A stretch of 64,000 nucleotides of DNA from positions 558,001 through 622,000 of the forward strand of contig JAFCMP010000290.1 of assembly GCA_017506865.1 (NCBI GenBank), written 5' to 3'. Positions 36,201 through 64,000 of this stretch are shown piece after piece. The notes under the pieces are model-generated. The model made no database searches. It saw only the letters and a list, made by a program, of their open reading frames with translations, and was not told the DNA's origin. The stretch is from Tribonema minus. Its lineage: Eukaryota > Sar > Xanthophyceae > Tribonematales > Tribonemataceae. Every line of letters begins with the position of its first letter. Positions within the stretch are counted from its first letter, which is position 1. The position numbers and the translations under genes are program-made.

Positions 36201-39200
36201 GGGCTACTGGCACCAGCCGCATACACGGCCCAGGCATGCACAACACTGAGGCCGGCAATAATTCATGCCACTGTGGCAGCAGGGGCCCTGAGGCTCGGCA
36301 CTGACGAACACGGCGCAGTCACCTGGTTCGCGCAGCACTCATGCGCAATACGCGAGGACCAGGGACTGCCGCCAATCATCGAGGCCGTGCGACGCTCTAC
36401 GCGAGCGCTGACAGCTGATGGCGGCGAAAAATCACGCACAGCTGTGGCCGAGCAGCTCCCAGCATCGTTGCTACGGTGGGCAGCAGATACGACGGCCGCA
36501 GCGTCGACGCTCCCCACTGCGGTGCAAGCGATCTACGCCGCAACTGCCGTCACGGAGACAGTGACCACTGAGCCAGCCCCACACACCCACGGCATTGTGC
36601 CTGGCGCCGAGGCGGCCGCTGCGGCGGCGACCGTACCTGGCCCTCAAGCCGCTGCCGCGGCTGCCCCTTCCACGCCCGCTAAAACACAAACTAGCGCGGA
36701 AGAAAGCAGCTGCAGCGGCGGGCAGGAGGACGACGACGACGACTGGGAGGCCTATGCTGATGAGATCTGCAGGAAGGTAGTGCCCCGCCGCCGGCGCGGT
36801 CACTTCACGCACGGACTACAAGCCGGCCTTTCAAATGTTCTTCGACGTCAATACGAGGATTGCCTGGTGGAGGACCTAGAGGCTGCCTCGGCTGGTGCCG
36901 TGGGCAAGCCGACGCAGGCTGCACCTATTGGTGACTCGCGCGACACCAGCCGCCGCCGCCAACAGGCTAGCGCACGGGTCCTGGCGCAGCTGCGCAGCCA
37001 GCGTGCGTCCGGGGCAATGGCGTGGATGAGCGTGCCACCCACTGCCAATGACCGCCCGGGTGCGGCGCCCATGTCCAGTATGGCAGCAGCCACGATGATT
37101 TTGATTGCGATCTTCATAGACGGGTGGGGCATACAGGGCGAGGTGTGCCCATGGCGGTGCAGTGATGTGAGCCCCACCTCCACGCATGCGATCAGCTGCC
37201 CCAGCCAGCACATACGGGGGCACAACGCGACACACACTGCCCAAAAGCGGTGCCTGCAGCGCATCTTGAGACAGCACCATGTCTCTATTGTCCGCAATGA
37301 GGACGCTAGCGTCTTCAAGGTACCGGGGTATCGGGCGGACACAGTCATTGACCCAGGGTGTCTGCACTTTAGCAGTGCATACCGTAACAAGGGAATAAAG
37401 TGCTAGACACAAGTGTGCGCGCGCCCACAGCGAGCTCGAACCTGACAGGCAGAACAAATGCCTCGAACACGGACGGCTATGCTGCTGGGGTGGGGGAGGA
37501 CGCGAAGGTCAAGCACCACACCGGCACCTTGACGTCATCTTGGGCTTTTGTGCCATTCGTGCAGGAGTCGTACGGACGGCTGGGCAAGCAGACAAGCCTT
37601 TTTGTTAAGGAGTTGGCAATGCACTCAGCACTGTGCTCAGGGGGGGGGGAAGGCAGATGTGTTACGCAAGGCCGGGTTAGCTAAGCGTCAGATCCTCATT
37701 GAGCTGAGCATATCGCTGGCGCGGGAGTTGGCGGAGCGCGTTATGGCGTACACACGTGGAGCGCGAATGCTGGGCTGTGTTGCGGCGCCGGTATCCAAGC
37801 TCCTAGGGCACAGCGCAGACTAGGCTGCTGCGTTGACGCAAGCTTTTCGATTGCATAGGCAACCCGGCCTCCCTTGGGCCTTTATAAATACAAGTCCATA
37901 CGTACATCATGTGTGCAAGCAGCGCAGACCCCCATTGGCAACTTGACTATTATAGCGCTTGCAAGGTGCAAAGGGTGATTGTTTATACATCTAGGCCTGC
38001 TGTGTCTTTTGTACGAGGGTTCCCGCCCTCAAGCAAAAGTGAATAAAGTCCTCTCTAGATGTCACATGAAGCTGCATGGCTGTTTCATATACTCATGGCA
38101 CAGGGATGCCAAACTGTGGCGTTGGGGACCTGGTGGTGGAGCTGCCATGTGGTACCCATTTGGTCACTGAGATCAAGTTCTTGGATTTCTACGCGCATGG
38201 CAACACAGGTATGTCACACGGTGGCCCCAATCTAGAAACAAGCATATATTTGCAACGCGACAACACTTTTACTCAGGCAGACAGAAACTTAATTCTGGAG
38301 AAGCTGAAAACATGTGGTCAGGCAGCCGTGGCTTGATGCGTGCTGCTTCAGCAGTAGTGAACAATGCATGTCCAGCGGGTGCCACTTAGTCAATACGGTA
38401 GTGCCCATGGCAAATTTGCTGTTCATGGATTTGATGACGGGATTCGCGTAGTCCTGCAGGGCTGCAGCCCGTACATTTCAAAGTGTATGCTACGAAATTG
38501 CAATGCATGCACTTTGACATGTTTTTTTGTTGAAGTTCTACTACGTCCGTGTCACATTATGATGTCAGTGTGCCTCAGCTTTCTGAAGGAAACAGCATGT
38601 AACCTACGTGTGAGGCGTTTCTTACAACAGCCCTTCCAGTGTATTCCACTGCTGCGCAGTGCCAATGTCAGGTGTATGCTGCCCTCTGCTAAGGCTGACA
38701 CTTGATTGAGTCACGCGAACGTGATGCTTGGGCAGAACAGAGTTGGTGTCAGGTCTGTAGACGCTAGCATACGCGTGCTGAACCACCAGCGCCTTTGGCC
38801 ATTTATCTTTTTGATGCTTGCACTTGTACGTACGCGCTCGCTGCCTCGCAATCGAGTACGGCACAAATGAAACGGACAGCGCGGACAGCGGGCACACGCT
38901 CCTGCTGCAACGCCTACAGGAAGAGGGCGTGTGGGGACGGCCCCTCGGTTTGTCTGTGTGGGCCATTGTTGCAGCGGTCTACGCGGTCTCGGTGACGGTG
39001 TGGCAGGCCGAGCCTCAGGCCACTGGCAGCACGCAAAAATCAACAGGGCTGGTGCTGGCACAACTGATGGGGCTGCCAGCGGTATTCGCACCGGCAACTC
39101 CAGCTCAGCCTGACTGCCATCTGGATGTGCTGTGGACGCCGCCTGGGCTATATACAAATGTGGGACACTTTGAACTGCTTGTCGCCCCTGCGGCAGCTCC

Positions 39201-42200
39201 GCCCTTGCCAACCACTATGACAGCGTCGGCGACCACTCAAGCTAACAGCACCCACATCACGGCTCCGAGTCGGACACAGCCCCGTACTGCGCTGCAGTTG
39301 CCACAGCAGCCTGAGCCACTGAGGTGTCCTTTATGCACACTGGCATTTTGGCAGCTTGGTCAGAAAGAGGACAGCAAACAGCGAGGCAAACTGTCAGCTG
39401 CGAGCCGCATGGCACCGGTAGTGGCCCACTTCAACGGTGGTAGCTGCACGAGGTCGATGCTGAACCCTGAGGCGAGCACATCACACTGTCAGCAAAATCT
39501 GGCGACAGCATACGCCAAGGGCATCCGGCAGCAGGTTGATCACGACCCATCCGGTGACCGTGCCCCTTCAGGCAGCAGTACCTGCAACACTGGGGCACAC
39601 CATGCCAAGCGTGTGCAGGAGATGAGCACCATGTATGGTTGCACGGCAGAAGACTTCCTACGGGCGGTAAGGAAGCTGAGTGCATGCACAGGTGCCTGCG
39701 GTCTGGTCCATATGTCAGCCAGCGCGGGGCAGAGGCAATGCGCGCTGACCTCGCCATGCCACACGTGTCGACGGAATGGAAGCGCCCCCACGCGCGCACG
39801 CCCGGCAGTACCCCCGGGCCAGTCCGAGGGCGGGGGTGCGGGTAGCGACGGCGCGGCCGCGGCGGCGGGGGCTGCCGCAGCGACACCTCCAAAGCCACCG
39901 GCGGTGCCGGCTAGTGGCGCTGCCAACTCAAAGTCCAGCAAGAAACGCCCGGCGGCCACGGCAACCGGCGCGCAACGCCGGCGCCGAACGGCAGCTGCTG
40001 CAGCACCGCCTGGCAGCGCCGGCAGCCGCACTCAGTCTAACAGCCTAAGGCTGCAGGACAGCAGCCCCCCCCACGGGACGGCCGTGGGATGGGCGGACAT
40101 GGACTTGGACCCGCCGGACGATGCCGCGTCACCGCCCCCCCCGACCACCACCACCAGTGGCAGGCCCTCAAAGCCCCAGTCACGAGCATCCCTGGCTTGG
40201 GACCTCTCGACGCCCTCGGTCGTCCACGCACTTGACCAGACCAATGAGGCGGATCTACTGCTGCTACGGTTCACCACGACTGCCAACCCCTTCCGCACTC
40301 AGCTGCAGTGCACCCAGTGGGCACGGCTAGTGGAGCACGCCACACGACTACTGGCGGACGCCACAGACAGTGCACGTGAGGCGGCACGGGTGCGCCTCCA
40401 CCATGGTGCCGGGGCGTTTGCTCATCAGGTTTCTCAGACTCTAGTGCAGCGCGGCTACAGGCTGCTGCACCTGCTAGCAGCAATGGCCTTTGGTAGGCAA
40501 CCGGAGGGAACCGGTATGCCGCCTGCGGCCCGGCTGGCAGCGTTGCTGTCTGGCGACTTTGCGGAGCTACTGAGAAAGACGCTGTCAGCAGCAGCGGCGC
40601 TGCGGGCCCCCAAACCAAACAACGCAGCTACGGCGTCGGCACAAACGAACTTCGATGCCGACTGGACGGAGGCTGACTCCAGGCAGCAAACAGCATGCGC
40701 TGCCCTCTCAGGCAAGCGACGGGGGGTAGGCCTGGCTGCCGCACGACTAGAGGCGCGTGAAGCATGCGCCCCAGCAGACGAGGTCACGGCACAGGTGCTG
40801 GCAGCAAAGCACCCTGAAACTGGCACCCGGCCCGGGGTAGTCGATACGCCAATGGAGCAAGTGCGCGGCCTGGTACGCGACGCCCGGCGGCACTGCTTGC
40901 ACGGCGCAGGGGTGGCAACGACCGCCGGGCCCGCTGGCAGCGGCAGTCCCGTCTTCGAATCGGGTCAGGCGCATGATCGCAGCGATAGGCCTGAGGATGC
41001 TGCCAGCGCAGCCGGACGGCGCCTCGAGGTGGAGGCGACAGACATACTGTCGACCTTGTCCGCAGCAGGGGCGGGGAAGGCAGGAGGGCTGGACGGCCTA
41101 CGCTATGAACACCTCTTGATGGCCGCTGGGCCTGGTGCACCAGTGAAAGCAGCCACCCGCCCCGTGGGCAGTGCCTCGCCAGGACTAGCTGGTGATTCAG
41201 AATCGGATGTGATGGAACCGGCATTCGCCCATCACCTGGCCAAGGTGTTCACGACGCTGCTTGTTGAGCCCGAACTGCTGCCGGAGCAATCGCAACGGCT
41301 TCTCCGCGCCGCGGCCCTCTCAGGCATAGGACAGAAGCGGCGTCCGATCGCCTGCTCCAGTGTCTGGCGCAGACTCCTCGGGTCCACAGCGGCACGGGGT
41401 GTCAAGGGCAAAATATCGGGGCTGCTGGCCTCCATGTCGCAGTTTGGCGTAGGATACCGGTCTGGCGTCGAGCATGTGGCAGCGCGCGCGCGCGTGTGGC
41501 ACGAGCTGTATGGCACCACAATCCAGCTGGACTGTGAGAACGCATTTAACAGTGTGGATCGCGCCGCCATTGTGCGGGGACTTATGCTCTTCTGTCCGGA
41601 GCTGCTCCCGCACTTTGAGTCCGTATACTGTGGTGACACTGCCCCAGAGATGCGAGTGGAGGTGAACGGTGAAGCTCGCATTATCTGCTCCCACCTAGGG
41701 TGCCAGCAAGGGGACCCTCTAGGGCCGCTGTACTTTGCAGTGGCAGCGGCATTCCTACTCTTCTACCCTGATGGAGTGAGTGCGACGCCCGGCAGTATGC
41801 CGGCCTACGGCCACAGCACAGCGGAACCGCCAGCCCCGCACTGCGCTTTCCTGGATGACCTCAACGTGCTGCAAGCTGCCTACTTCGACGATGCAGCGGC
41901 CGCTGGGGTGGCAGAGGTGATCCGTCGGCTTGCGGCAGGGGGCCTACGCGTTCGACCAGACAAGTCGCTGGCCATTGCCATGCGCGGCACAGTGTTTGAT
42001 GAAGCGGCCAGAGCACGCCTGCGCGCCCTTGACATACCGTTTGTGGACGCCACCATGCCAGAATCCAGTCAGGGCTTTACGTCGGTCGGGGTACCGGTAG
42101 GGCACCCAGCCTATGTGCATGCTGCCATGAGCAAGCATCTTGTTGACGCAGGGACATGGCGATTGTCGTGGCAGCTAGCTGGGATGGCGCGGCATCACCT

Positions 42201-44587
42201 ACAGGCAGCACAATTCATTCTGCGCAGGTCACTGACAAAGCGCATGGGCTTCTTAGCTCGGGTCGTTGACACGGCTTTGAGTGAGACATGGCTGCACGCA
42301 TTTGACGGGTTCTGTGCATGGACGCTTGAACGCATGCTGCACCTGCACGGCTGCGCTACCGCGGCAGTCATGAAGTCACACCTGCTGGCCGCCTGCACTG
42401 CTGGTGACAATGAGGTAGCCAGCAGTGGCAGCGTGCTGGTATTGCCGCGCTTGGGCCCGCCAGAACTCACGGACATCGCAGTGCCACTGCGGGCGTCACG
42501 GTTGCCGGAGCGACGAGGCGGTCTGGGCATGCCGCTTTTGGGGCTACTGGCACCAGCCGCATACACGGCCCAGGCATGCACAACACTGCGGCCTGCAATA
42601 ATTCATGCCACTGTGGCAGCAGGGGCCCTGAGGCTCGGCACTGACGAACACGGCGCAGTCACCTGGTTCGCGCAGCACTCATGCGCAATACGCGAGGACC
42701 AGGGACTACCGCCAATCATCGAGGCCGTGCGACGCTCTACGCGAGCGCTGACAGCTGATGGCGGCGAAAAATCACGCACAGCTGTGGCCGAGCAGCTCCC
42801 AGCATCGTTGCTACGGTGGGCAGCGGATACAACGGCCGCAGCGTCGACGCTCCCCACTGCGGTGCAAGCGATCTACGCCGCAACTGCCGTCACGGAGACG
42901 GGGACCACTGAGCCAGCCCCACACACCCACGGCATTGTGCCTGGCGCCGAGGCGGCCGCTGCGGCGGCGACCGTACCTGGCCCTCAAGCCGCTGCCGCGG
43001 CTGCCTCTTCCACGCCCGCTAAAACACAAACTAGCGCGGAAGAAAGCAGCTGCAGCGGCGGGCAGGAGGACGACGACGACGACTGGGAGGCCTATGCTGA
43101 CGAGATCTGCAGAAAGGTAGTGCCCCGCCGCCGGCGCGGTCACTTCACGCACGGACTACAAGCCGGCCTTTCAAATGTTCTTCGACGTCAATACGAGGAC
43201 TGCCTGGTGGAGGACCTAGAGGCTGCCTCGGCTGGTGCCGTGGGCAAGCCGACGCAGGCTACACTTATTGGTGACTTGCGTGACACCAGCCGCCGCCGCC
43301 AACAGGCTAGCGCGCGGGTCCTGGCGCAGCTGCGCAGCCAGCGTGCGTCCGGGGCAATGGCGTGGATGAGCGTGCCACCCGCTGCCAATGACCGCCCGGG
43401 TGCGGCGCCCATGTCCAGTATGGCAGCAGCCACGATGATTATGGTTGCGATCTTTATAGACGGGTGGGGCATACAGGGCGAGGTGTGCCCATGGCGGTGC
43501 AGTGACGTGAGCCCCACCTCCACGCATGCGATCAGCTGCCCCAGCCAGCACATACGGGGGCACAACGCGACACACACTGCCCAAAAGCGGTGCCTACAGC
43601 GCATCTTGAGACAGCACCATGTCTCTATTGTCCGCAATGAGGACGCTAGCGTCTTCAAGGTACCGGGGTATCGGGCGGACACAGTCATTGACCCAGGGTG
43701 TCTGCACTTTAGCAGTGCATACCGTAACAAGGGAATAGTGCTAGACACAAGTGTGCGCGCACCCACAGCGAGCTCGTACCTGACAGGCAAAACAAATGCC
43801 TCGAACACGGACGGCTATGCTGCTGGGGTGGGGGAGGACGCGAAGGTCAAGCACCACACCGGCACCTTGACGTCATCTTGGGCTTTTGTGCCATTCGTGC
43901 AGGAGTCGTACGGACGGCTGGGCAAGCAGACAAGCCTTTTTGTTAAGGAGTTGGCAATGCACTCAGCACTGTGCTCAGGGGGGGGGAAGGCAGATGTGTT
44001 ACGCAAGGCCGGGTTAGCTAAGCGTCAGATCCACATTGAGCTGAGCATATCGCTGGCGCGGGAGTTGGCGGAGCGCGTCATGGCATACACACGTGGAGCG
44101 CGAATGCTGGGCTGTGTTGCGGCGCCGGTATCCAAACTCCTAGGGCACAGCGCAGACTAGGCTGCTGCGTTGACGCAAGCTTTTCGATTGCATAGGCAAC
44201 CCGGCCTCCCTTGGGCCTTTATAAATACAAGTCCATACGTACGTACAAGAATCACCGACTTGGTCTGCATTCTGACTAGCCCCTGGATTGTGCTGCTTCT
44301 TGGCTAGCGTTAGCAGCAAGCAACACTCCTTCAAGGTGCCCATGCAGCAGCAGAATATGCTCTTTTTTCTTTCTCCCTACATGCATGCCCTGCTGTTTGC
44401 AGCGACAGTCAAGCGCCGCAAACATCGCCGAGAGGTGGAGCAGCAGGCTTGCCGCTATGGCTCCCTCTGGGCAAAACAATATAGAGGTACTCTAGTGCTC
44501 TGCGCTGACTTTACCAATGAGGGCCTGCACTACCACAGAATCAGACATTGGAAGGGTATGGACCTCTATGCCCTGGCCAGCAGCTGA
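33244..44587 (+). CDS. Paralog A: unknown three-exon protein, PD-(D/E)xK-like, with LINEs in both introns
   Basis: Exons 33244-33418, 38104-38208 and 44403-44587 join in phase 1/1 to give 154 aa. Exon 1 encodes MAFCQPCYALRRHHLPQI, a basic/helical part, and EWDVVPG. Exon 2 encodes GVGDLVVELPCGTHLVTEIK. Exon 3 encodes VKRRKHRREVEQQ and GTLVLCADFTNEGL before the stop. The order D (in GDL), then E-x-K (in TEIK) after about 13 residues, then a basic helix with Gln, resembles the core of PD-(D/E)xK nucleases; this is inference, not a family match. Exon sizes and phases of exons 1 and 2 are identical in paralog B, which supports the model. Removing L2 and L3 leaves introns of about 630 and 780 bases, like those of B (602 and 694). 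The final ~20 residues differ from B. Confidence 0.65.
33833..33851 (+). repeat. Target-site duplication, 5' side of LINE L2
   Basis: GTACATCATG is present here (33842-33851; also overlapping once more just upstream) and again at 37902-37911 directly after the LINE 3' end, giving a 10-bp target duplication. Confidence 0.85.
33852..37823 (+). pseudogene. LINE RT-RLE ORF of copy L2, truncated and frameshifted
   Basis: The frame is open from the 5' junction through RT motifs (LDCENAFNSVD, QQGDPLGP, FLDDL) to about 37396. There two extra A bases (GGAATAAAGTG against GGAATAGTG) shift it to a stop at 37404-37406, inside the endonuclease domain. One extra G in a G run near 37640 returns the frame, which ends at the normal stop at 37823. 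The endonuclease is therefore broken and the N-terminus absent. Confidence 0.9.
33852..37901 (+). mobile_element. LINE-like retrotransposon copy L2, 5' truncated
   Basis: Similarity to the longer copy starts abruptly at CTGGCTTGGGACC and runs to the 3' end CCATAC, flanked by the 10-bp duplication GTACATCATG. This is the expected product of target-primed reverse transcription with 5' truncation. It lies in intron 1 of paralog A, in the same orientation as the gene, with no poly(A). Confidence 0.93.
38826..38833 (+). repeat. Probable target-site duplication, 5' side of LINE L3
   Basis: GTACGTAC occurs here and at 44239-44246 directly after the LINE 3' end. The 8 bases are palindromic and simple, so the exact boundary is uncertain. 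Confidence 0.6.
38834..44160 (+). CDS. LINE polyprotein: RT, CCHC finger and restriction-like endonuclease, N-terminus missing
   Basis: The frame is open for about 1,775 codons. Numbering residues from 38818: RT motif A LDCENAFNSVD near 904, motif B QQGDPLGP near 963, motif C FLDD near 1012, and VRPDKS after it. A CCHC finger (C-x3-C-x8-H-x3-C) is near 1557. A C-terminal restriction-like endonuclease has RADTVIDPG (Asp 1621), LDTSV (Asp 1643) and a Lys pair near 1676, followed by FVPFVQESYGRLGK. The N-terminal part has Ala/Pro-rich linkers, Cys pairs (CPLC, CHTC) and, at the extreme 5' end, a WGRPLGLSVWAIV...GHFELL stretch resembling the C-terminal half of OTU cysteine proteases. RLE-type LINEs nick the target and prime cDNA synthesis there. 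An acidic DDDDDW stretch precedes the basic finger region. Confidence 0.88.
38834..44238 (+). mobile_element. LINE-like retrotransposon copy L3, longest copy, inserted in intron 2 of paralog A
   Basis: This 5.4-kb copy is flanked by GTACGTAC on both sides. It has one long ORF and a 78-base 3' UTR that includes TTTATAAATAC and ends CCATAC without poly(A). The ORF runs out of the 5' end without an ATG, so even this copy is probably 5' truncated. It is nearly identical to L1 and L2, indicating recent activity. It has the same orientation as the host gene. Confidence 0.92.
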
Positions 44588-52262: not shown

Positions 52263-52983
52263 AGCGTCAACTGTCTTATCACACCATGCTCCAGAAATAA
52301 GAAAACAAAGCTTGCCGCAAGGTGCATGTTGTGAAGCAGGGCGGGTTGTGCGTGACACCCTCTGGCTCAGACTCATACGTGCACTCATGCTCTGAAACTG
52401 GCAAAACCGCGTAAATTATGAACAGAGAATGATGCAGGCGAAACAGCATGATCAAGTGTCAAGCTGCACAAACGGCACCAGGCATTAGTCGGATCGACCG
52501 ACTGGCCTCAACTAGTAGTAGTGTTGGAATATGAGATGTCCAATACTTAGTGCATACCCTAGGGGTAGGGCACGGTCCAGTTCTAAGGTTTTCTCCAGTA
52601 AGTTCTAGAAAGTTCTTGAAGGTTCTGGTGCCCCTACGGAACATAAGGTTCCCGCTGGCCCTTGTTTTGTGTCAGCGATAATATCACTTCTTCTTCTCCC
52701 AGCTCGAGGCGCCTGCGGGCGGCCTGCGGCCAGGGCATGGCTGCTCTCCTCTCTCTCTGCGCACCCCCAATTTTCCAATGGAGATCATGGTGTGCACACA
52801 GCAGCTGTTGCGGTGATGGGACATCAGTACTTTTCATTTCAGAAAGCTGGTTCAGGCGCGGCAAGCACAGATAATTGGCGTCAAGCCTGCAACCAAACAG
52901 GGCTGGGTTATAGCGGCGCAGCGTCTCACAGCTCATTGACGATCAAAATGTTTGGTGCATGTCAAATGATTCCCTGGGGCCAG

Positions 52984-53579
52984 TGAAGAGCAAAGCCCAG
53001 AGACGCGGCATCACCGCCAGCAAGCCGCAGATCACTCTTGTCACCAGCCCTCTGCTACCTCGCAACTTCGGTGCAGACAACGTCGGTGATGTGATCCGGT
53101 ACTACAGCAGCTGCACTGGTTGGTCTCGCGGCCGCCTTGTAGCGTACCACCCTCGCCATTCACGGCACACCTTCGACGTGCTGTTCACAGGCGAAGCACG
53201 GCCACGGCGCCTGCGTTTGCGTGAGGGGTACTACAAAGTCAACGAGCAAGACGCCAACGCTCCGCTGACGGATCCCCCCCATAGCACTTGGAATCTCATT
53301 GTCGACCAAGCCGACACACCCGTGTCCATTGAGAGTTCCTTGGCTTACATCCGTGCTGTGCTTTAGCCGCCCCCGGATTCACCCTGTGGGGCTCGCCATC
53401 CCTCCTACCGCTCTGACTCGAACACAGCTTTACTTGACACCAGCCGCTCATGTTCAACATAGAGTCTTAGCGTGCGAGTCCTGTGGGCCCAATGTGCCTC
53501 TGTTTGCAGCGCTGATCCCTGATACCGCCGTCGAGGACGACGACGAATCGAAGAAGGGGGAGCTGTTACGGATTGTACA
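52984..53579 (+). repeat. Left LTR, about 596 bp
   Basis: The left boundary is fixed by identity with 63710 onward and begins TGAAGAG. The right boundary is proposed at ...GATTGTACA (53579), because TG...CA ends are usual and a PBS-like TGGTATC follows three bases later. The first 383 bases are the 3' end of the element's own coding frame, ending with TAG at 53364-53366. Confidence 0.6.
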
Positions 53580-54705
53580 TTGTGGTATCCGTGTCTGATG
53601 ATGCCATTATTAGGGCATACCCCTGGTATGTCGGGTGATGATGCAGGGTTTCATACATGTTACTCCTGAGTCAGATCCCCTGGATTGTGCCGAGGATCCA
53701 ATTGCAACTTGCCAAAAAGGCAGCTGCACACTCACTTCTTTCTCTACCTCCGGTCTCGGCACAAGACAGCTATAGCTGAGGACACCCCCACCTCCACAGG
53801 CCTCCACCGACAACAAGGTAAGTTAGCATGCTGTAGCACACCGCTGAGCTCTCATAAAACAGTGGCACTCGAACCAGGCGCTTGTGCGTGTCCTCCGCCT
53901 TAGCTGCGAGGCCTCGCAACGGTTCACAGCGTTGTGCACGGTCGTCTGCCTCAATGGCGGAGCCACGCTAAGCTCGACCGCCCTCCGTAGGCTTCCAGGG
54001 TAGCACAGCGTAGTGTAGCACAGCGTAGTGTAGCACCGCTTGAACGTACACATCGTGGCCGCCTCTCGTGGCCAGCTAACGACAATTGACCCGTACACAT
54101 CGTGGCCGCCTACCGTGGCCAGCTAACCTCAAGTGGGACGCTCCGCCTTCGAAGCGAAGTGGCACTAGTTTATATGTGTGTGTGTGTTTGCGCGAAGCAG
54201 ACGGCATTCACTGGCTCGTGCAGTCTCCCGCGGCTGCTCTCCTGTGTTGCTCAAGCAGGCATGCGCACATGTGTGTCCCGACAGCACCCAGGTGCTCGCA
54301 CATTGCCATGATCGACCATCGAGCCTTGAATGCTGACGTGATGTAGTCAGTAGGGCAGCCCTGACAGAGACTGTCTGCCGCGCCAGCTGCCGTCGGACGC
54401 TGGCACTGCCCTCTCCACGCTCAAGATGCGAGGCGTACAGGTGGCCACCCGTGTTGCATGTCATGACGCCGCCACGGCTTTGGTGGTAGGGCCGTGGACT
54501 TCACATGCACCATTCCTCTCGCAGCGACCCCAGCATCATATCGCAATGGGGGGAGGAGTGGTTTACTGGCAGCAAAGTGCACATGTGATGCTGTGCCCGC
54601 TGCTCCTGTTGGTTCATGACCACACGCATGAGCATAAAAACCACCACTGACTACATGCACCAAAGTCTTGGAGCTCACCCTCTCCCTACTTTCTCGTCTT
54701 AGCAG
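53580..54705 (+). other. 5' leader of the gypsy element
   Basis: About 1.1 kb lie between the proposed LTR end and the start codon. It contains small direct repeats: AGCGTAGTGTAGCAC at 54007-54035, and CGTACACATCGTGGCCGCC at 54044 and 54092. No ORF with a recognised domain is present. TTAGCAG directly before the ATG could be a 3' splice site, so part of the leader may be removed from the mRNA. Confidence 0.5.
53583..53594 (+). other. Candidate primer-binding site
   Basis: TGGTATCCGTGT starts three bases after the proposed LTR end. Its first seven bases match the complement of initiator tRNA-Met 3' ends used by many LTR elements. The remaining match is poor, so the primer is uncertain. Confidence 0.3.
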
Positions 54706-57700
54706 ATGGCAAACAATGAGAGTGGTAACGCGGCTGGGATCCAGGGAGCTGAGCGCAGGGGCAATGGCAAGCGTGCCGCCTCCGCCAGAGTCGCAGCCCC
54801 TGCAACCACTCCGCGTTCGTCCACTGCCGCTGCTGCTGCTGAAGCTGCTGCCAAGCAGGCGGAGGAAGCCGCTGGCCGTCCCCGTGCACGCTCTGGCGCG
54901 GACAACTCCGCCTCGGAGGGTGATGGACGCAGCGAGCGCGCCGCGCAAAACCCGGTGAGCCGTAGCCAAGACGCACTTTCTAGCACTCCTCCCGCTCCTG
55001 GTCGCGCACAGGACACCACCGTCAGGGAGCTTGTTCGCGCATCCAAGGCCATAGCTCTCATCCCTGACCCCCCGACAGACGCTCCGGTGGCAGTCAAAGA
55101 GCTATTTGTGTCATTGCGCGCTGAGCACACCTCCCTCGCAGAGGAGTCGCGCCAAGCCTCTGACGCCGTTAACCGGCTCAAGGTTGCTCTGATGTGCGTG
55201 GACGCCGACATCCAACGCGCTCAGAAGTCTCTTGTCAAGGCCGCCACTGACGCTGAGCGCGCCGATATCCGCGAGCAGCTCACTGCTCTCTCCGCCGACA
55301 AGTCAGAGCTCGACGCTGCGCTGATCTCTTACAGGGCACCCCGCGAGGCCAGCAGCGCTCAGCTGGTCATCCTACGCGAGCTAGCTACTCACGCCCTAAA
55401 CCTTCTCAACGGTGGCGCTACCGCTGAAGAGGTCGTAAACGCCATCGCCGCCAAGCGCAACGCTCGCGCAGGTATTGCTAACCCCTTGCCTGCCCACGAC
55501 GCTCCTCGCGACGCACCCTCCCGCGATCCTGACAGGGAGCGCGTTGCACAGCTGAACATCATCGCCAAACTCCCCTCCACATTATGCCTTGAACCGCTGC
55601 AGCTGACATCTGCGCTTTCCTCACGTGAACGCATGTGGCAGCAGTGGGGCGTGAAGAGGGAGTATTGGTCTGTTGCTCTTGATGCTGCCATCCCTGCAGA
55701 CAAGCGTGCTGAGGTGTCTGGGCTCTCTGCCACCATTGACGGGGTTACCACGGGCTGGGACACCCTCACCTATGACCAGCGCGTAGCTGCCCTCACAACC
55801 AAATATGATGACAAAACTGCACGCCATACTGCGCGCGATGAGTGGTCTCGCCTCGTATACGACTGGCATGCTGAGTCCCCGCGTGACTTTGCCAACAGGC
55901 TTGACACTTATGGCCGGCGTGTAGAGGGGGGCTCTAACGAGGCCACTCGCCGTGAGAAGTTTTACAGCTGCATGCCTGACTTTGTTAAGGTTCAGCTGGA
56001 CAGGCGTGACAACTTCTGGCAGGACCCCCTCACAGTCAGCGTGAACCACGCCGCCGCCGTCTGGCGCACTCACTTGCAAGAGCATGGGATCCCGCTCCCA
56101 GACAGCGTTGGCGCTCACGACACTCCCGCTGTCATCGCCACTGTCACCCCCCCTAAAGGCACCCCTACGCAGGCGCCTGATGCTGCAAGCCTTCCCCGGC
56201 GCAAGGCGTCCAAGGAGGCTAAGCGGCAAGAGTGTGTCCAAGCAGCCCGGTCTGCACTAGAGGCGGATAACACGGAGTTGGCGTTTGCGCAGCTTGCGGT
56301 GCTCCATGGCAAGGGCGCCCCTGCTGCTGCGCCGCCTTCCACGCCTCTCAATTCCGGCAAGCGCAAAGCAGCGCAGGACGGCCAGCCGGCCTCTAACCCT
56401 AAGCCCGGCTTGACCTACAAGCCGTTCAACAACTGGACATGTAAGCGCTGTGGTGTGATGGTTACCACTGGCGAACGGTATGCCGATCATCACGCAAGCT
56501 CTGAGTGCCGGGACAACCGCCGCGCCCCGTCGCGCAGTCGCAGCCGCGACCTTGCGCCGCCTGCCTCTGCCGCGCCTGTCTTCGCGATGCAGGGAGCGCC
56601 CATCTATGCCATGCCGCCGCAAGTGGTCCCGCAGCTGGCTGCCATGCACGGTGCCGGCCCCGCACCCTCCTGGCCCACCGTGTACCAGGCACCTGCTGCC
56701 GCGGCGCCGGCACCAGCCCCAGCCCCCACTGCGGCCGCTGCCGCAGTGCAGCCGTGGACGGCCGACATCCAGGCAGCCATCGCCGCCGCCATGGCCACCA
56801 AACGCAGTGAGTCAGTGCTCGACAGCCGCTTAAGCGTTCACGCACCCCGCTGCGCGACCGCAATGCTTGCTGCGCTGGGCGTCATGTCGTCTGCTGTAGC
56901 TCAGCCTGCCAATGTGTCTGCACCCACGCCTGTTGCAAGTACCCCTGCTGCACCTGCGACATTGCACGTTGCGCGCGCTGCATCGGCATCTACGCCTGGT
57001 GCGAGTGCCCCTGCGGCACCGGTGATACCGCATGCTGCGCATGCCTCTGCTGCATCTGCGCCTACTGACGCTGGCATGACTGCACCGCCGGCACCCTTCC
57101 ATGCACGCCCTCACGTGGCTGTTCCCCCTCCCCCTGCTGCTGCGACCCCTGCCGCGCCTCAGATGAGTGAGCGTGCTAGGGAGCAGGCGATGGAGCGCCA
57201 TCTCACGCACGCGTCGCTGTGCTGCGGGATAGGCGGTTGGGAGGAAGGGTTTGCGCAGGCAAGTAAACTTGGCTTGCATGTCAACACAGTGCTCGCTGTT
57301 GACAACTGCGCGAAGACGTGTGACGCGTATAGGGAGACACACCCTACGTCTGCCGCACCCCAGTGCATGTCATTTGATGATCCCCGCATCATCCACCAAC
57401 TGCGCAAGCTGCGCCCTCACCTCACTACGTCCTCTACCCCTTGCACAGATTTTGCAAACGGGGAGGGAGTGGAGGGAGAGGCGGCGGAGCTGACATACAA
57501 GCTGGCCAAGGTGGTTACGGAGGCAGAGCTTGAGTTGGTGTTGTCAGAGAACGTCCCGCAGATGCTCAAGTCGCAAGCATGGGGTAGGGGGAAGGCCCAC
57601 CTGTTGGCCAATGGGTACGCAGTGTTAGAGACAGTCATCAAGGCATCGGAGCTTGACACCTGCTGCAGGCGTACGCGCGCGCTCGTCCTCATTGTGCGCA

Positions 57701-60700
57701 ACCGCCTTGGTGTCAAGGCCGCGCTCCAGCGCCTTTGCGCAGTCCTCAATGCCATGTGCAATAATGGAATTCCACTTTCCATGAGACATGTTCTGAAGGT
57801 TCCACGCCGTGTTCGCGGTTGCTTCTTGCGCCCTCGCGTGCGTTCCTCCAAAGGCGTGCATGACCTTGATGGACTGTTTGGCAGCCCCACGCGTCGCTGG
57901 CCTGGCTTGCCTGCTGTGAACCCTGCTCACTACATCCCATCCCCCGATGACGCATGTGATGTACGTGATGCTATGACTGTCACCCCCCGCGACATGGCGC
58001 TCATGCTGACATACAGGTCTGACTTGCCAACTGGCAGCCAAGAGCAGTTGCAGCTTTGGCTGGCCAACCTTGTCATGCCTGATGTCGCCCACGCATTCTT
58101 GCTTGCTGCATGGTGCAGTGGCATCTTTGACATGCAAGAGTCCAGCCCCTCTGATGATGGCTTTGCAATGTCATTGGATCGCAACTCGCCCACACCTGAG
58201 TGGCTCGCTGACACTGGCAGCACTGCCGCGCTTGAACACACAGACGGCACGGCCTCACGAGAGATGCAACACACGCTCGTGCAACGCTGCATTACCGCTG
58301 TCCAACGCATCTCCCGCGACAGTGAGAGCACAGCACGTGCCAAACTGTCCGCAGTCGACTTAGTGCCAGACAACACTGGTGAGCAGGAGAGCGACACAGA
58401 CGCGGTCGCGCCCAGCTTTCTCAGAGATGCAGCACCTGACCCAGTCTCTGCAGACGCTGACTCTGACACTGAGCCCATGGACTGCTCAGAAGAAGGGGGA
58501 GAACTCCAACAACCCCAACTTCAACTTCAACAACAGCCCCTTGCGAACCTCGCAGCGCTGAGCTTTTCTCACGTGCCTGTGCAGCCAGGCGAGAAGGTGG
58601 CCTACGCCACAGGCAGCCCCAGCGCTCAACGGTTCATCAACCTCATCACACGCATGCCCCACCAGCGAGACATCAAAGAGCTGAACATGGAGTGCATGCT
58701 GGACAACGGAGCCACGGCGAGCCTGCTGAGCATACAGCAGAGCAGACGGCTCCCAGAAGGTAGCGTACAACCGTTGCGACAGGGTGACTTCACCGCCATC
58801 GAACTTGCAGACAGTAAAACGCGCATCCCTATCACCGGCGCGGTGCAGATGACTCTGCGGTTCAGGAAGACCCTCGTTCGTCATCGGTTTTATGTGACCG
58901 ACATACCCATGCCTGCCATCATCGGCGGCGACTTCTTTGGGAGCTTTGGCAGTAGCCTGTCGTACTCTACCATGGAGTTCTTCCCCACGCCAGACTCCAG
59001 CGTTGCCATCCCCATGCGGCACAAGCTAGACGACAAGGCATCGAGGTTGTGCAACTTCAAGGGCCTCGTGGACAGAGTTGTCGCAGCCCCTGCTCCCCCG
59101 CCCACTGCCAAACGCAGTGCGCGCCTCCTAGAAGAGGTTGTGATGTCACCATTCTCAGAACAAGTGGTCGAACTCGCACTGTTCCCGCCTCCTAAGGACA
59201 CGCCAGAGCACACTGCCTTGATTCATGCGAGCCATGACCAGGTGATGGAGAGCCTAGCTGCGCAGGGCCTTCGCGTAGCCTTCACTGCGGTCACAGTCGC
59301 ACCCAACAACCCTGTCATGGTCAAGCTTGTCAACACTGGCTCCTTGCCTGTCCTCATCGGCAAGAACACCTTTGTGGGCACAGCCATTCCTGCCACAGAG
59401 GAGGACATCCTTGAGCTTGATGAGCAGACCAGTCAGAACACAGAGCAGCTTAAACGTGAGTTGCAGAAGCGCGTGCTGGAATATGCAGTCAGACACCACC
59501 AGTCGAAGGCGTTCAGGCAGGCCGCAGACGCTGCACTCAAAGCCCTAGCCTCCGAACCGCCCATACAGGAGTCAGACTCCCCCAGCACTGCGCCAGGCAC
59601 ACACAGTCCGCAGCGCTCACTTGGCTCCGCCGCCCAAGTGAACGCATACAGCTCCGTCTCAGACGTTTGTGGGGATGAGGAGCTGCGCACCATGCTCATG
59701 ACCGATGGTCAACTCAACCCCATACTCAAGGAGAAGGACTCGAAGGGGCAAGTATGGGCAGACCGAGTCTTTGACGTCTTGAAGCGGCATCGCGCCTGCT
59801 TCCCGGCTGACCCAAAAAACCCGCACGTCACAGACACCACCGAGTTCGACATTGACACCGGTGATGCATTGCCCATGGCGGACAGAGCCAGACGTTGGGC
59901 CCGCGCAGAGGCTGAGTACATCATGCAACAGGTGGCTCAGATGCACGCACGCAAGCAGATTGAGCCCTCCAATAGCCCCTGGGCTTGCAACCCCGTTCTC
60001 GCACGACAGGGTGACAAGATTCGCTTCTGCATCGACTTCCGCAAGCTGAACTCTGTCACCAAGCGAGACAGCCACGGGCTGGGCAACATAGATGACATGC
60101 TGCACAAAGTGCAAGGCACTAAGGTGATCAGCACGCTGGACATGGCTGCTGGCTACCACCAGGTGCCCCTCACCGCGTCCGCAAAGCCCAAAACGGCGTT
60201 CCGCACGCCTGATGGTGGACTCTGGCAGTACACTGTGGCCCCTTTTGGCCTGGTGAACTTGCCTGCACAATTTACGCGACTCATGCACGGTGTGCTGGGC
60301 GAGGAAGCCCTGAAGGACTACGCAACCGTGTACGTGGATGATGTGCTCGTCTATGACACCGACATGGAGGCCCACCTCCAGCACCTTGACGCAGTTCTCA
60401 CGCGCATAGAGGCTGCAGGCATGAGTGTGGCCTGGAAGAAGTGCCAACTCTTCCGCTCTGAGGTCAAGTTCCTTGGACATATCATTGGTGCAGGTGGCAT
60501 TCGCCCTGACCCTGAGAAGGTGAAGGCAATGGCAGACATGAGCGCACCCCTCAACGCTAGGGGCCTCGCAGACAAGCGGCTCGTACAAGTCGCTCTAGGC
60601 GTGTTCAACTATTACCGCCGCTACGTGCGCAACTTTAGCGCCATCGCAGCCCCGCTTGTCGAGCTCACCAAGGATGGCGCGAGCATGGAGTGGAACGCAC

Positions 60701-63700
60701 GCCGCAGAGACGCTTTTGAGCGGCTGAAGCAGGAGATGTGTAGCGCTTCCATAGTGATGCACCCCGACTTCTCACTGCCCTTCGTGCTCTACACGGACGC
60801 CTCCAAGGTCGCCACTGCCGGTGTTCTCACGCAGTTCCGGCCGGTCACGGAGCTTGACAGCCCGCTCATGAAAGCCAAGCCACCAACCTGCACTGGGCGC
60901 ACTAGCCTGGTTGAAGGGACCTTGCAGCGTGAGGTCGTTGTGGGCTACTTTTCAAAGATGAACTCTGTTCAGGACGCCAAGATGGGAGCCACAGCTCTCG
61001 AGTGTCTTGCAGTAGTCTTGTCAATGAACCACTTTCGGCCTTACGTCTGGGGCAGGCCATGCACTGTCGTCACCGACGCAGCTGCCCTCCGCTGGCTCCT
61101 CACACTTCAATCGAATGACGGCAAGCTGCTCCGCTGGGCAATGCGCCTACAAGAGTACGACATCACCGTCCAGCACCGACCTGGCAAGGTCAACTCCAAC
61201 GCCGATGGACCCTCTCGGCTGCCTCAGCAGGCAGAGCTAGACGCGCCCCGCCGTGTCGACCATGCCGATGAGGAGTGGCCAGACTCCATTGCCACTTTTG
61301 ATGCGCCGCCGTCAGGTGTGCAGTTCGCAGACGACCCAGCCACCACACACGCAGTGGAGCAAGCCGACACCACGGAGCCCGGCCAGCGCCCCTCTGACGA
61401 GCGCGTCGCCACCGTGGCCTCATACAAAGGCTACGTCGTGCAGCACTCTATGGGCACGCCTTTCCGCCTTAACGAGCTTGCAGCCTGCCTGGCCAGCTTT
61501 GGAGGCATCGCGCAGTCCCTCAGCGAGGTGACCCCAGAGCAAGCAAAGCAGCTGCTCCACATGCACGCAGATGAGTCCCCATGTGAGGTCGCACTAGGTG
61601 AAGCCGCCACACTGCTCACCCCGGCCACCATGGATATGCACATGAACGCTCTCCTTGACGAACACTTCAAAGGGGACAGGGACAGCCTCGGCTTGGGCAA
61701 CTTCGAGCCCTGGCGTCAAAGCAAGAAGCGTCGCAGCAACGCAGGAAAGGCCGTCCAGGTGGCCACCACCACTGCCACCACAATCGACGCGGACCCCGCT
61801 GACGCCGCCGTTGCACGTAACAACTGTGACGGTGAGCGCCCCCGTAAGCGCACTCTGCCGCGGCCTGAGCCCACGCCTCTTGCTGCGCAGCCAGATCCTG
61901 CCAGTGCTGGACCGCCGCCTACACCTGCCATGCTGAGTCGTGAGGCCTTCATCGAATTTCAGCGCCGCGACCCCTTCTGCTGTGCAGTGACTTGCCTGCT
62001 GGCTGACAAGGAGCTGCCCACGGACAAAGACCTTGCCGTGCACTTGATGGTGGCACGCGAGTGCTACAATCTTGAGCACGACGGTCTCCTCATACACTTC
62101 GCAAGCAGCCATCCCAAACGCGGACAAGTGCTGTGTCAATGGGTCGTCCCTGCCGCGCTACGCACCCTGGTGCTCCGTCTGTGCCACGACGACGCCAGCG
62201 CGGGCCACTCCGGCGTCAGCGCCACCCACATTCGTGTGTTTGAGCGCTACTACTGGACTGGCATGGCCCATGACATCCGCACCTATGTGACCAGCTGCAT
62301 GGCGTGCCAGCTGAACAAGAAGGCCAACACATCCCGGTACAGGACACACCTCTTTCCCCCCACTCGCATGTTCCAACGGCTCAACGCAGACCTAGTCTCG
62401 CCGGGCTCGAGCGCAGGAGGGTTTGAGTACATCCTTACTGTGGTTGAGGCCAGGTCTGGCTTTGTGTGGCTCTTCCCACTCAAGTCTAAAGACTCCAAAG
62501 AGGTGTCAGCGCACCTCTACACTGTCATCCTAGAGGCAGGCGCCCTCGTGGAAGAGATAGTCACTGATCAGGGTGGAGAGTTCATAGCTGGGGTCGTGCA
62601 TGACTTGTGCACCAGCATGGGCGTGAAGAAGATCCAAACCAGTGGCTACCACCCCCAGACCAACGGCGTCGCCGAACGCATGAACGCTCGCGTCTTGCAA
62701 TCACTCCGCCTGTGGGTGAACGACCGCCAAGACAACTGGCACGAAGGCCTCGAGACACTACAGTTTCAACTGCGAGCAACTCCTCGCGACGAAACGGGCC
62801 TGTCACCGTTCTTCTGCGTCTACGGACGTGAAGCCACCCTGCCGCACGACGCGTTTCATCACGCAGACCGTCCCATGGACCTACACACGGAGGTCGAAAA
62901 GCGCGCTGAGTCACGGTTGTTGGCTGAAAAGGTCATCAGTGAAGCCTTCGGCAAGCGTGCTGCCAAAGTGGCAAAGCAAAACGACATTATCAAACGCTCC
63001 GTCAACGTCGCCATCGGAGATTGGGTCCTCGTCAGACGAGAGCCAGTCGAAGAGCGCGCACGCAAGATGGACGAGAAGTACACTGGGCCCTGGCAAGTGA
63101 TGGAAAAAGCAGGTAACTCAGGACTCTCCTTCACATGTCGAATGATGGGCAGCCGCATCAAACAGAAATCTGTGCACGTCACGCACATGAAGCCCTTCCG
63201 GCTCCGCCCCAGCCACTTTGAGCACACATCTCCACACGTGCAACTCACAGCAGCGCAACTGCAAGATCTTCCCCATGAGGAATGGCTCGAACGCATAGTC
63301 GACAGACGCGTCGGCCCCAACGGCAAGTGGCAGTACCGCTACATCGACAGAACGGGCCAGCAGAGCGACTTCACCAGCGAAGCTGCCATGCTTGAAATGA
63401 CGCAGCCGTGGGTACTTGACACATTCCACGCCATGTATGAGCTGCGTTATGGCGACTCCATACCCCTGTACGCGCGCCGCCCCGAGCCTCCAGCCACGCG
63501 ACGGCTCTCGGTTGAGGAGGCCCTACAGCGGTTTTCACGTGGCACGACAGTGGTGCGCGAGGTGACCACCCCCTCTGGCTCACGCGAGTACATCTGGGGT
63601 GCAATCAGCGGTTACCTCCACCCCTACTGGCGCGCTCGCTACGACGATGGCGAATGGGAAGAGCTCAACGCAACTGAGGTCAAGGCTGCCATTGCCCTGG

Positions 63701-64000
63701 CTGAAGCAGTGAAGAGCAAAGCCCAGAGACGCGGCATCACCGCCAGCAAGCCGCAGATCACTCTTGTCACCAGCCCTCTGCTACCTCGCAACTTCGGTGC
63801 AGACAACGTCGGTGATGTGATCCGGTACTACAGCAGCTGCACTGGTTGGTCTCGCGGCCGCCTTGTAGCGTACCACCCTCGCCATTCACGGCACACCTTC
63901 GACGTGCTGTTCACAGGCGAAGCACGGCCACGGCGCCTGCGTTTGCGTGAGGGGTACTACAAAGTCAACGAGCAAGACGCCAACGCTCCGCTGACGGATC
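54706..64000 (+). CDS. Gag-MTase-Pol polyprotein of the gypsy element (C-terminus outside window)
   Basis: One frame is open for at least 3,098 codons from ATG 54706; by the left LTR, the stop should lie 92 bases past the window, giving 3,128 aa. Residues: Gag 1-600 with a C-x2-C...H...C finger near 579; Ala/Pro linker; C5 methyltransferase 832-1145; aspartic protease (LDNGATASLLS, Asp 1333); RT (FCIDFRKLN, STLDMAAGYHQVPL, YVDD at 1876-1879); RNase H (YTDAS near 2029); a ~180-residue spacer with basic KKRR; integrase with HHCC finger from 2494 and DD35E (Asp 2562, Asp 2621, Glu 2657); GPW; chromodomain-like EEWLERIVDRR near 2858; two Tudor-like segments (about 2945-2992 and 3032-3080). No frameshift separates Gag and Pol, so the protein must be cut by its protease or its dosage controlled otherwise. 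Confidence 0.92.
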   Translation, partial: MANNESGNAAGIQGAERRGNGKRAASARVAAPATTPRSSTAAAAAEAAAKQAEEAAGRPRARSGADNSASEGDGRSERAAQNPVSRSQDALSSTPPAPGRAQDTTVRELVRASKAIALIPDPPTDAPVAVKELFVSLRAEHTSLAEESRQASDAVNRLKVALMCVDADIQRAQKSLVKAATDAERADIREQLTALSADKSELDAALISYRAPREASSAQLVILRELATHALNLLNGGATAEEVVNAIAAKRNARAGIANPLPAHDAPRDAPSRDPDRERVAQLNIIAKLPSTLCLEPLQLTSALSSRERMWQQWGVKREYWSVALDAAIPADKRAEVSGLSATIDGVTTGWDTLTYDQRVAALTTKYDDKTARHTARDEWSRLVYDWHAESPRDFANRLDTYGRRVEGGSNEATRREKFYSCMPDFVKVQLDRRDNFWQDPLTVSVNHAAAVWRTHLQEHGIPLPDSVGAHDTPAVIATVTPPKGTPTQAPDAASLPRRKASKEAKRQECVQAARSALEADNTELAFAQLAVLHGKGAPAAAPPSTPLNSGKRKAAQDGQPASNPKPGLTYKPFNNWTCKRCGVMVTTGERYADHHASSECRDNRRAPSRSRSRDLAPPASAAPVFAMQGAPIYAMPPQVVPQLAAMHGAGPAPSWPTVYQAPAAAAPAPAPAPTAAAAAVQPWTADIQAAIAAAMATKRSESVLDSRLSVHAPRCATAMLAALGVMSSAVAQPANVSAPTPVASTPAAPATLHVARAASASTPGASAPAAPVIPHAAHASAASAPTDAGMTAPPAPFHARPHVAVPPPPAAATPAAPQMSERAREQAMERHLTHASLCCGIGGWEEGFAQASKLGLHVNTVLAVDNCAKTCDAYRETHPTSAAPQCMSFDDPRIIHQLRKLRPHLTTSSTPCTDFANGEGVEGEAAELTYKLAKVVTEAELELVLSENVPQMLKSQAWGRGKAHLLANGYAVLETVIKASELDTCCRRTRALVLIVRNRLGVKAALQRLCAVLNAMCNNGIPLSMRHVLKVPRRVRGCFLRPRVRSSKGVHDLDGLFGSPTRRWPGLPAVNPAHYIPSPDDACDVRDAMTVTPRDMALMLTYRSDLPTGSQEQLQLWLANLVMPDVAHAFLLAAWCSGIFDMQESSPSDDGFAMSLDRNSPTPEWLADTGSTAALEHTDGTASREMQHTLVQRCITAVQRISRDSESTARAKLSAVDLVPDNTGEQESDTDAVAPSFLRDAAPDPVSADADSDTEPMDCSEEGGELQQPQLQLQQQPLANLAALSFSHVPVQPGEKVAYATGSPSAQRFINLITRMPHQRDIKELNMECMLDNGATASLLSIQQSRRLPEGSVQPLRQGDFTAIELADSKTRIPITGAVQMTLRFRKTLVRHRFYVTDIPMPAIIGGDFFGSFGSSLSYSTMEFFPTPDSSVAIPMRHKLDDKASRLCNFKGLVDRVVAAPAPPPTAKRSARLLEEVVMSPFSEQVVELALFPPPKDTPEHTALIHASHDQVMESLAAQGLRVAFTAVTVAPNNPVMVKLVNTGSLPVLIGKNTFVGTAIPATEEDILELDEQTSQNTEQLKRELQKRVLEYAVRHHQSKAFRQAADAALKALASEPPIQESDSPSTAPGTHSPQRSLGSAAQVNAYSSVSDVCGDEELRTMLMTDGQLNPILKEKDSKGQVWADRVFDVLKRHRACFPADPKNPHVTDTTEFDIDTGDALPMADRARRWARAEAEYIMQQVAQMHARKQIEPSNSPWACNPVLARQGDKIRFCIDFRKLNSVTKRDSHGLGNIDDMLHKVQGTKVISTLDMAAGYHQVPLTASAKPKTAFRTPDGGLWQYTVAPFGLVNLPAQFTRLMHGVLGEEALKDYATVYVDDVLVYDTDMEAHLQHLDAVLTRIEAAGMSVAWKKCQLFRSEVKFLGHIIGAGGIRPDPEKVKAMADMSAPLNARGLADKRLVQVALGVFNYYRRYVRNFSAIAAPLVELTKDGASMEWNARRRDAFERLKQEMCSASIVMHPDFSLPFVLYTDASKVATAGVLTQFRPVTELDSPLMKAKPPTCTGRTSLVEGTLQREVVVGYFSKMNSVQDAKMGATALECLAVVLSMNHFRPYVWGRPCTVVTDAAALRWLLTLQSNDGKLLRWAMRLQEYDITVQHRPGKVNSNADGPSRLPQQAELDAPRRVDHADEEWPDSIATFDAPPSGVQFADDPATTHAVEQADTTEPGQRPSDERVATVASYKGYVVQHSMGTPFRLNELAACLASFGGIAQSLSEVTPEQAKQLLHMHADESPCEVALGEAATLLTPATMDMHMNALLDEHFKGDRDSLGLGNFEPWRQSKKRRSNAGKAVQVATTTATTIDADPADAAVARNNCDGERPRKRTLPRPEPTPLAAQPDPASAGPPPTPAMLSREAFIEFQRRDPFCCAVTCLLADKELPTDKDLAVHLMVARECYNLEHDGLLIHFASSHPKRGQVLCQWVVPAALRTLVLRLCHDDASAGHSGVSATHIRVFERYYWTGMAHDIRTYVTSCMACQLNKKANTSRYRTHLFPPTRMFQRLNADLVSPGSSAGGFEYILTVVEARSGFVWLFPLKSKDSKEVSAHLYTVILEAGALVEEIVTDQGGEFIAGVVHDLCTSMGVKKIQTSGYHPQTNGVAERMNARVLQSLRLWVNDRQDNWHEGLETLQFQLRATPRDETGLSPFFCVYGREATLPHDAFHHADRPMDLHTEVEKRAESRLLAEKVISEAFGKRAAKVAKQNDIIKRSVNVAIGDWVLVRREPVEERARKMDEKYTGPWQVMEKAGNSGLSFTCRMMGSRIKQKSVHVTHMKPFRLRPSHFEHTSPHVQLTAAQLQDLPHEEWLERIVDRRVGPNGKWQYRYIDRTGQQSDFTSEAAMLEMTQPWVLDTFHAMYELRYGDSIPLYARRPEPPATRRLSVEEALQRFSRGTTVVREVTTPSGSREYIWGAISGYLHPYWRARYDDGEWEELNATEVKAAIALAEAVKSKAQRRGITASKPQITLVTSPLLPRNFGADNVGDVIRYYSSCTGWSRGRLVAYHPRHSRHTFDVLFTGEARPRRLRLREGYYKVNEQDANAPLTD
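57199..58140 (+). CDS. C5 cytosine DNA methyltransferase domain within the polyprotein
   Basis: This part of the ORF carries the ordered motifs of C5 DNA methyltransferases. Motif I is SLCCGIGGWEEGF (AdoMet binding, residue 837 on). A motif II-like VLAVDNCAKTCDAY follows. Motif IV is STPCTDFAN with the catalytic Cys at 913. Motif VI is SENVPQML (Glu 948). Motif VIII is CCRRTRALVLIVRN near 986. Motifs IX/X are VTPRDMALMLTY (1092) and LANLVMPDVAHAF (1119). All catalytic residues I can identify are kept, so it is probably active. The region between VIII and IX, which reads the target in this family, is short (about 90 residues). It would methylate cytosine in DNA, possibly the element's own cDNA or the host insertion site; the target sequence cannot be predicted. 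Confidence 0.88.
63710..64000 (+). repeat. Right LTR (first 291 bases)
   Basis: This stretch is identical to 52984-53274. The polyprotein frame runs into it without a stop, encoding VGDVIRYYSSCTGWSRGRL and onward. The remainder is outside the window. Confidence 0.93.

Follow-up and report, generated by a model that had tools for sequence, protein, structure and literature searches.

Judged from its sequence, a retrotransposon towards the 3′ end of the window (the whole 64,000-nucleotide stretch of DNA analysed here) is a young, autonomous Ty3/gypsy element with long terminal repeats (LTRs) that encodes a complete C5 cytosine methyltransferase (C5-MTase) in its single polyprotein, between Gag and the protease. 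The initial annotation had described a Ty3/gypsy element made of one open reading frame (ORF), with a complete C5-MTase between a Gag finger and the protease, and domain matches and motifs confirm it; the coordinates and motifs given there for the enzyme were right, the structural domain covering about 57166–58182. A significant match to Pfam DNA_methylase (PF00145), which that annotation had anticipated, lies at polyprotein residues 835–1003 (E = 2.1e−13), and the PC, ENV and RxR motifs are present. The motif IV cysteine, ENV and RxR are invariant across five families, of which the other four are 30–37% identical to the window domain. In the predicted structure of the window domain the catalytic fold is complete and extends through motifs IX and X at its C-terminal end; on this model, the domain is a complete C5 cytosine methyltransferase that combines the predicted fold with the catalytic motifs. 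No regulatory domain was found within the methyltransferase stretch; a search for DNMT1-RFD gave no matches, and neither did its control search.

The order of protease, reverse transcriptase (RT), RNase H and integrase is that of Ty3/gypsy LTR retrotransposons, the protease of the window copy being recognised from its motif only (Table 1). At the place matching this motif, the related element L023 has a gag-asp_proteas match (E = 2e−4, 22.1 bits) below the cut-off of 28.2. The Gag finger-like motif of the window element has no Pfam match, and in L023, L024 and L026 the MTase is likewise preceded by a similar finger motif. The element is bounded by an 881-bp direct repeat (52981–53861 and 63707–64587, 100% identical), which exceeds the length of the LTR. 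We set the LTR ends from the short flanks of six other copies, with two LTR matches 10.7–10.8 kb apart, and all six have perfect 4-bp target duplications (TCGG, GGGC, CTTG, CGAG, CGTG and TGTG), which fit integrase-mediated transposition of the window element family. The window copy itself stands head-to-tail with a truncated neighbour, whose pol end and polypurine tract precede the 5′ LTR, and because of this remnant its 5′ side lacks a target duplication. Since its two LTRs are identical and several near-identical copies exist, the element was probably mobile recently. After the integrase, Pfam revealed no chromodomain; the matches there were weak SH3-like and Tudor-like ones. The Tudor-like stretch (63598–63687) is possibly a chromatin reader substituting for a chromodomain.

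Table 1. Coordinates of the methyltransferase-bearing element and its parts (window positions; residues refer to the polyprotein)
Feature	Position	Strand	Remarks
3′ remnant of a second copy (polyprotein gene end and polypurine tract)	52981..53563	+	identical to the end of the window element
5′ LTR, 298 bp, TGTTACGG...TAAAACA	53564..53861	+	TG..CA ends; boundaries fixed via other copies
Polyprotein ORF	54706..64000 (window end); stop codon 64090-64092, further along the same contig	+	3128 aa, ATG at 54706
Gag finger-like motif C-x2-C-x12-H-H-x4-C	56440..56508	+	residues 579-601; regular expression
C5 cytosine methyltransferase domain (predicted)	57166..58182	+	residues 821-1159; motifs I, IV, VI, VIII, IX, X in canonical order
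Putative target-recognition stretch, motifs VIII to IX	57775..57939	+	alignment position and model; recognition function inferred
Aspartic protease active-site-like motif MLDNGATASLLS	58696..58731	+	residues 1331-1342; motif only in the window copy
Reverse transcriptase	60013..60486	+	residues 1770-1927; YVDD at 60331; PF00078 E 1e-28
RNase H	60766..61158	+	residues 2021-2151; PF17917 E 2e-22
Integrase: H2C2 zinc-binding 2481-2539, rve core 2553-2646	62146..62643	+	PF17921 E 1e-18, PF00665 E 4e-8
Weak Tudor-like stretch 3′ of integrase	63598..63687	+	PF21743 E 0.035, 14.3 bits, cut-off 27.2
3′ LTR	64290-64587, past the window end	+	

Three further long-ORF stretches of the window (297–4067, 33825–37406 and 38818–44160; ORFs of up to 1780 aa) look alike by eye and are part of a different element; in the third, RVT_1 is weakly matched (E = 1e−6), slightly below the cut-off.

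Gypsy lineages, copies and selection

Across the searched genome (158 Mb, 554 contigs) there are at least 261 MTase places, in at least two gypsy lineages, a setting that a single window could not have revealed. In type A, which comprises the window element, L023 and, from the domain alignment, L021, L024 and L026, the MTase precedes the protease; L023 has the MTase at 984–1131 and a weak protease match at 1547–1630. In type B, represented by L025, L018 and their kin, the MTase follows the protease and precedes the RT, and a chromodomain stands at the end. L025 has a weak protease match at 609–700 and the MTase at 871–1189, Pfam detected no protease in L018, and the chromodomain match is above the cut-off in L018 (E = 1e−6) and below it in L025 (E = 8e−5). 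RTs of the two types are 31% identical, and hhalign shows their MTase domains to be homologous (99.7%, 25% identity).

The MTase counts refer to the candidates that were scored (123 of 378 for PF00145, 108 of 403 for the window domain and 117 of 397 for the type B domain), and among those listed there are at least 123 matches to PF00145, the window's own copy lying outside the scored set, at least 109 to the window domain and at least 121 to the type B domain. Merging 317 of the 353 match rows gave the total of at least 261 places, which also counts fragments and the four ORFs (L011–L014) that are not part of long element frames. With the DNA of the window domain as query we obtained 22 match rows and 17 copies at 96–100% identity (its own included; 16 of them almost complete and one split in two), and with the LTR 42 match rows. 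Four other copies are identical to the window over 1201 bp, and a fifth differs at one base. The initial annotation had called for further copies with the same architecture as a safeguard against an assembly chimera, and such a chimera is ruled out by the 17 domain copies together with the target duplications in six other copies. An MTase lies 1.5–6 kb upstream on the same strand in 86 of the 108 closest RT matches (median 2865 bp); in the remaining 22 it may be deleted, unscored or cut off at contig ends. The corresponding figure for type B, at 1–8 kb upstream, is 42 of the first 48 RT matches. One copy of the window element (G000:C311:6724–7869) has an open frame of 6208 aa, twice the normal length, perhaps a head-to-tail fusion.

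Selection keeps the MTase domain in related families, as its ratio of nonsynonymous to synonymous substitution (dN/dS; counted by NG86 on a small number of pairs, in part related to one another, with no formal test) lies between those of RT and of linkers in two pairs. For the type B pair L025/L027, dN/dS is 0.069 in the MTase, 0.059 in the protease, 0.038 in RT, 0.146 in RNase H, 0.50 in Gag and 0.604 in the linker. For the type A pair L023/L028 it is 0.171 in the MTase and 0.049 in RT-RNase H, with 0.40 in Gag and 0.479 in the linker resting on few changes (five in the linker). The values for L024/L026 (0.21) and L018/L025 (0.20) both come at near-saturated dS. The window element has 11 near copies, of which eight are free of stops and indels in the domain and three have frame-breaking indels there, one of these three also a stop. 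The five most diverged near copies (14–26 differences) have pN/pS of 0.16–0.24 (L044: 17 synonymous, 9 nonsynonymous), and three of these five carry indels. Divergence between L023 and L028 is mosaic (dS of 0.007 in Gag, 0.10 in the MTase and 0.07 in RT-RNase H), which suggests recombination or template switching between subfamilies.

Class of the enzyme and lineage of the host

When the type A profile was compared with PDB, the best matches were DNMT2 chains (50 bits, motifs I–VIII), followed by M.HhaI (44), and the DNMT2 match included nothing significant over the C-terminal half. No DNMT3 chain was among the 52 PDB sequences matching this profile at E ≤ 10, although the PDB library holds many. 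We also built a tree, as the initial annotation had recommended (42 rows, motifs I–VIII; DNMT5, DNMT6, CMT and published element enzymes left out). It recovered type A as one clade (99/93) and type B as another (100/98), but most of the deeper placement remained unresolved. In one-clade tests, type A with DNMT3A (a single sequence) gave a borderline p of 0.047, with DNMT1 0.056, with L011/L012 0.022, with HhaI 0.13 and with DNMT2 0.25; type B with DNMT1 gave 0.22. In the best tree type A falls outside DNMT2, though their joint clade is not rejected, and a separate DNMT2-like ORF of the genome, L014, groups with the DNMT2 references. The DNMT3 class is ruled out for the window enzyme by the DNMT3-free PDB matches and the DNMT3A test. 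By these comparisons, the window MTase is of an orphan class, not DNMT3. The annotation had suggested a capture separate from those already known, and this is likely, because the window enzyme differs from the Klebsormidium Gypsy-Dnmt3 type.

A scan of prokaryotes for MTase relatives returned one archaeal match (27%), and a viral scan returned two weak loci for the type A query and none for L012. In protein searches the domain alone found two proteins (98%; 70% identity over 27% of the query), the profile three, and the polyprotein region none. P0002 and P0003 are pieces of a relative 68–70% identical to the window domain (longest contig each 16,200 bases, JGI), and going by these two sequences a close relative exists outside this genome. 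Three MTase ORFs of 367–390 aa outside long element frames (L011:2839–3948, L012:2705–3799 and L013; C223, C181) show by eye a motif X-like GNSVVP ahead of a motif IX-like stretch, the order being apparently permuted. On an 84-kb viral contig (L054, 2983–5835), three adjoining ORFs resemble C5 methyltransferases by eye.

Two deep Ty3/gypsy lineages of one genome may have captured an orphan prokaryote-like C5-MTase independently, placed upstream of the protease in one lineage and downstream of it in the other, with both under purifying selection; we hold this only tentatively, at somewhat less than even odds. A third RT group is 36–37% identical to type B RT, compared with the 31% between A and B, and in none of its 27 places does an MTase from among the scored candidates lie 1–8 kb upstream. 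Such a group without an MTase would separate A from B, which is suggestive. Types A and B stand together in the best tree with support of only 67/62, which speaks, if anything, against two sources. The structure model of type B (pLDDT 41) was too poor for use. If the captures were independent, LTR elements of this host would have converged on the need to carry an MTase, which would then be more than a curiosity.

The host had been taken for a probable chlorophyte, which is ruled out by a plastid rbcL fragment and by matches of antenna proteins. The rbcL fragment scores 101 bits against its best PDB chains, which we take to be red-type, versus 61 for 1gk8 and similar chains, presumably green. 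A first antenna protein fits 9jj8/9uen (two chains of the same sequence) and 8z11 best, at 122 and 117 bits versus 92 and 91 for the next. A second scores 108 bits with 6jlu and 7vd5, which we take to be diatom chains, versus 59 and 57 for the haptophyte chains 8z11 and 9uen. According to PMC12716418, 8z11 is the Isochrysis galbana FCPI, EFCPI is the Emiliania huxleyi antenna and 9uen is named once. On these sequence matches the host is a red-lineage alga, for which a haptophyte affinity is likely; given the second antenna protein, it may belong to another red-lineage group.

Possible roles of the enzyme and known systems

The best explanation of these observations, to which we give a probability of roughly 0.55, is that the MTase of the element is packaged and methylates the element's own cDNA, so that copies would enter the genome with a host-type mark. 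The MTase would be made with Gag-Pol and packaged alongside, the element protease would probably cut it free, and it would methylate the newly synthesised cDNA, either ahead of integration or during it. Each new copy would then integrate with the host's type of mark and might pass as self or settle in tolerated chromatin. We infer alike the activity of the MTase, its action on own cDNA, the sequence context and the advantage. As the element has one ORF and no frameshift, the enzyme would be produced together with Gag and Pol, and it is simplest to expect that it is packaged along with the RNA and RT. By analogy with the argument of de Mendoza et al. for DIRS elements (PMC5890265), cDNA methylation would be the most likely use.

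Several observations weigh against this explanation. The best PDB sequence match is DNMT2, a tRNA methyltransferase, and the SymbioLINE enzyme failed to methylate DNA in yeast (PMC5890265), so DNA is not the sole possible substrate. The four identical copies could be separate insertions or redundant contigs, and the near copies of the window element share history. Six of the 11 near copies, those closest to the window element, differ too little for selection to be judged (pN/pS of 0.3 or more where formed; L036: 2 synonymous, 4 nonsynonymous), and the pair L020/L022 has a dN/dS of 0.85, that is, no constraint.

The match to DNMT2 chains, the p of 0.25 for a joint clade with them and the behaviour of the SymbioLINE enzyme would all suit a domain that, as DNMT2 does on tRNA, methylates the RNA or tRNA primer of the element and not its cDNA; we consider such a role unlikely. 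An offensive use seems similarly improbable. Here the enzyme would act in trans on the genome, either so broadly that host silencing loses information or to silence rival elements, as might be expected from the number of MTase places and the two gypsy lineages, and as de Mendoza et al. speculate in regarding ubiquitous CG methylation in Symbiodinium as a response to uncontrolled element methylation (PMC5890265). Against this, the CpG observed/expected ratios of 0.838 for the element and 0.737 for the remainder of the window give no sign of strong CpG loss driven by 5-methylcytosine. The element might instead restrain itself, using methylation to silence its inserted copies and so lower the cost to the host. 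The CHH and CHG methylation on silent elements such as the Klebsormidium Gypsy-Dnmt3 copies (PMC5890265) is in line with this, but the youth of the window element, with its identical LTRs and several near-identical copies, makes it quite improbable. A passenger domain without present function, already disfavoured, has very little chance of being correct: the L020/L022 ratio and the indels and stop in three of 11 near copies speak for it, yet in two pairs, one per lineage type, the MTase dN/dS is well below that of linkers in the same ORF (if 2–3.5 times that of RT), and the motifs are kept across families as far apart as those compared above.

As a rule retrotransposons are targets of DNA methylation, and here a compact genome has many of its MTase places inside enzyme-carrying elements. 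If the domain methylates element cDNA, the question of why a parasite carries the silencing enzyme of its host would become testable in an alga, and the enzyme, being active, would add a compact tool to those available for methylation.

Retrotransposon-borne DNA methyltransferases have been reported before, as the annotation had noted. According to PMC5890265, DIRS and LINE elements of Symbiodinium and the Gypsy (Dnmt3) of Klebsormidium carry DNMTs under purifying selection, the DIRS-borne enzyme methylates CG de novo, and Symbiodinium has hundreds of MTases in retroelements, with three structurally distinct element families in the one genus. Three other papers describe element DNMT3s in streptophytes and dinoflagellates (Copia, DIRS) as well as ‘orphan’ DNMTs (Mol Biol Evol 2025, PMC12344493), a seeming absence of DNMT3 from the haptophytes studied, which have DNMT5 and a DNMT1/CMT-like enzyme (Commun Biol 2023, PMC9998398), and, undifferentiated, DAM- and DCM-encoding retrotransposons in stramenopiles, red algae, green algae and charophytes (2019 opinion, PMC6338049). 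Our searches of an open-licence library, preprints excluded, brought up no report of an MTase-carrying retrotransposon in a haptophyte. The elements described here share the marks of DNMT-encoding retrotransposons, namely many copies, conserved catalytic residues and purifying selection (the L020/L022 pair excepted). What they add is another eukaryotic lineage and an enzyme whose class differs from the one found in the known Gypsy element.

The window domain matches M.HaeIII and M.HhaI end to end in the modelled fold and shares their canonical motif order and, as far as was found in the stretch, their lack of a regulatory domain, but identity is 15–16% and the domain is fused into a retroelement polyprotein. 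DNMT2 (TRDMT1) is the closest in PDB sequence over motifs I–VIII, but gives no significant match over the C-terminal half, and the genome has its own DNMT2-like ORF. With SymbioDIRS-Dnmt3 and SymbioLINE-Dnmt the system has in common hundreds of retroelement MTases in a photosynthetic protist (PMC5890265); those elements, however, are DIRS and LINE, not LTR/gypsy, and their enzymes are Dnmt3 or of an orphan class. Like the window element, KnitGypsy-Dnmt3 of Klebsormidium nitens is a Gypsy whose Pol polyprotein ORF contains a C5-MTase and which has several intronless copies, with Ka/Ks under 0.2, but its enzyme is a Dnmt3 and its repeats have a DIRS-like structure (PMC5890265). The window element, in contrast, has no DNMT3 affinity, ordinary 298-bp LTRs, 4-bp target duplications and a red-lineage host, whose genome also contains another gypsy lineage that carries the domain in a different position.

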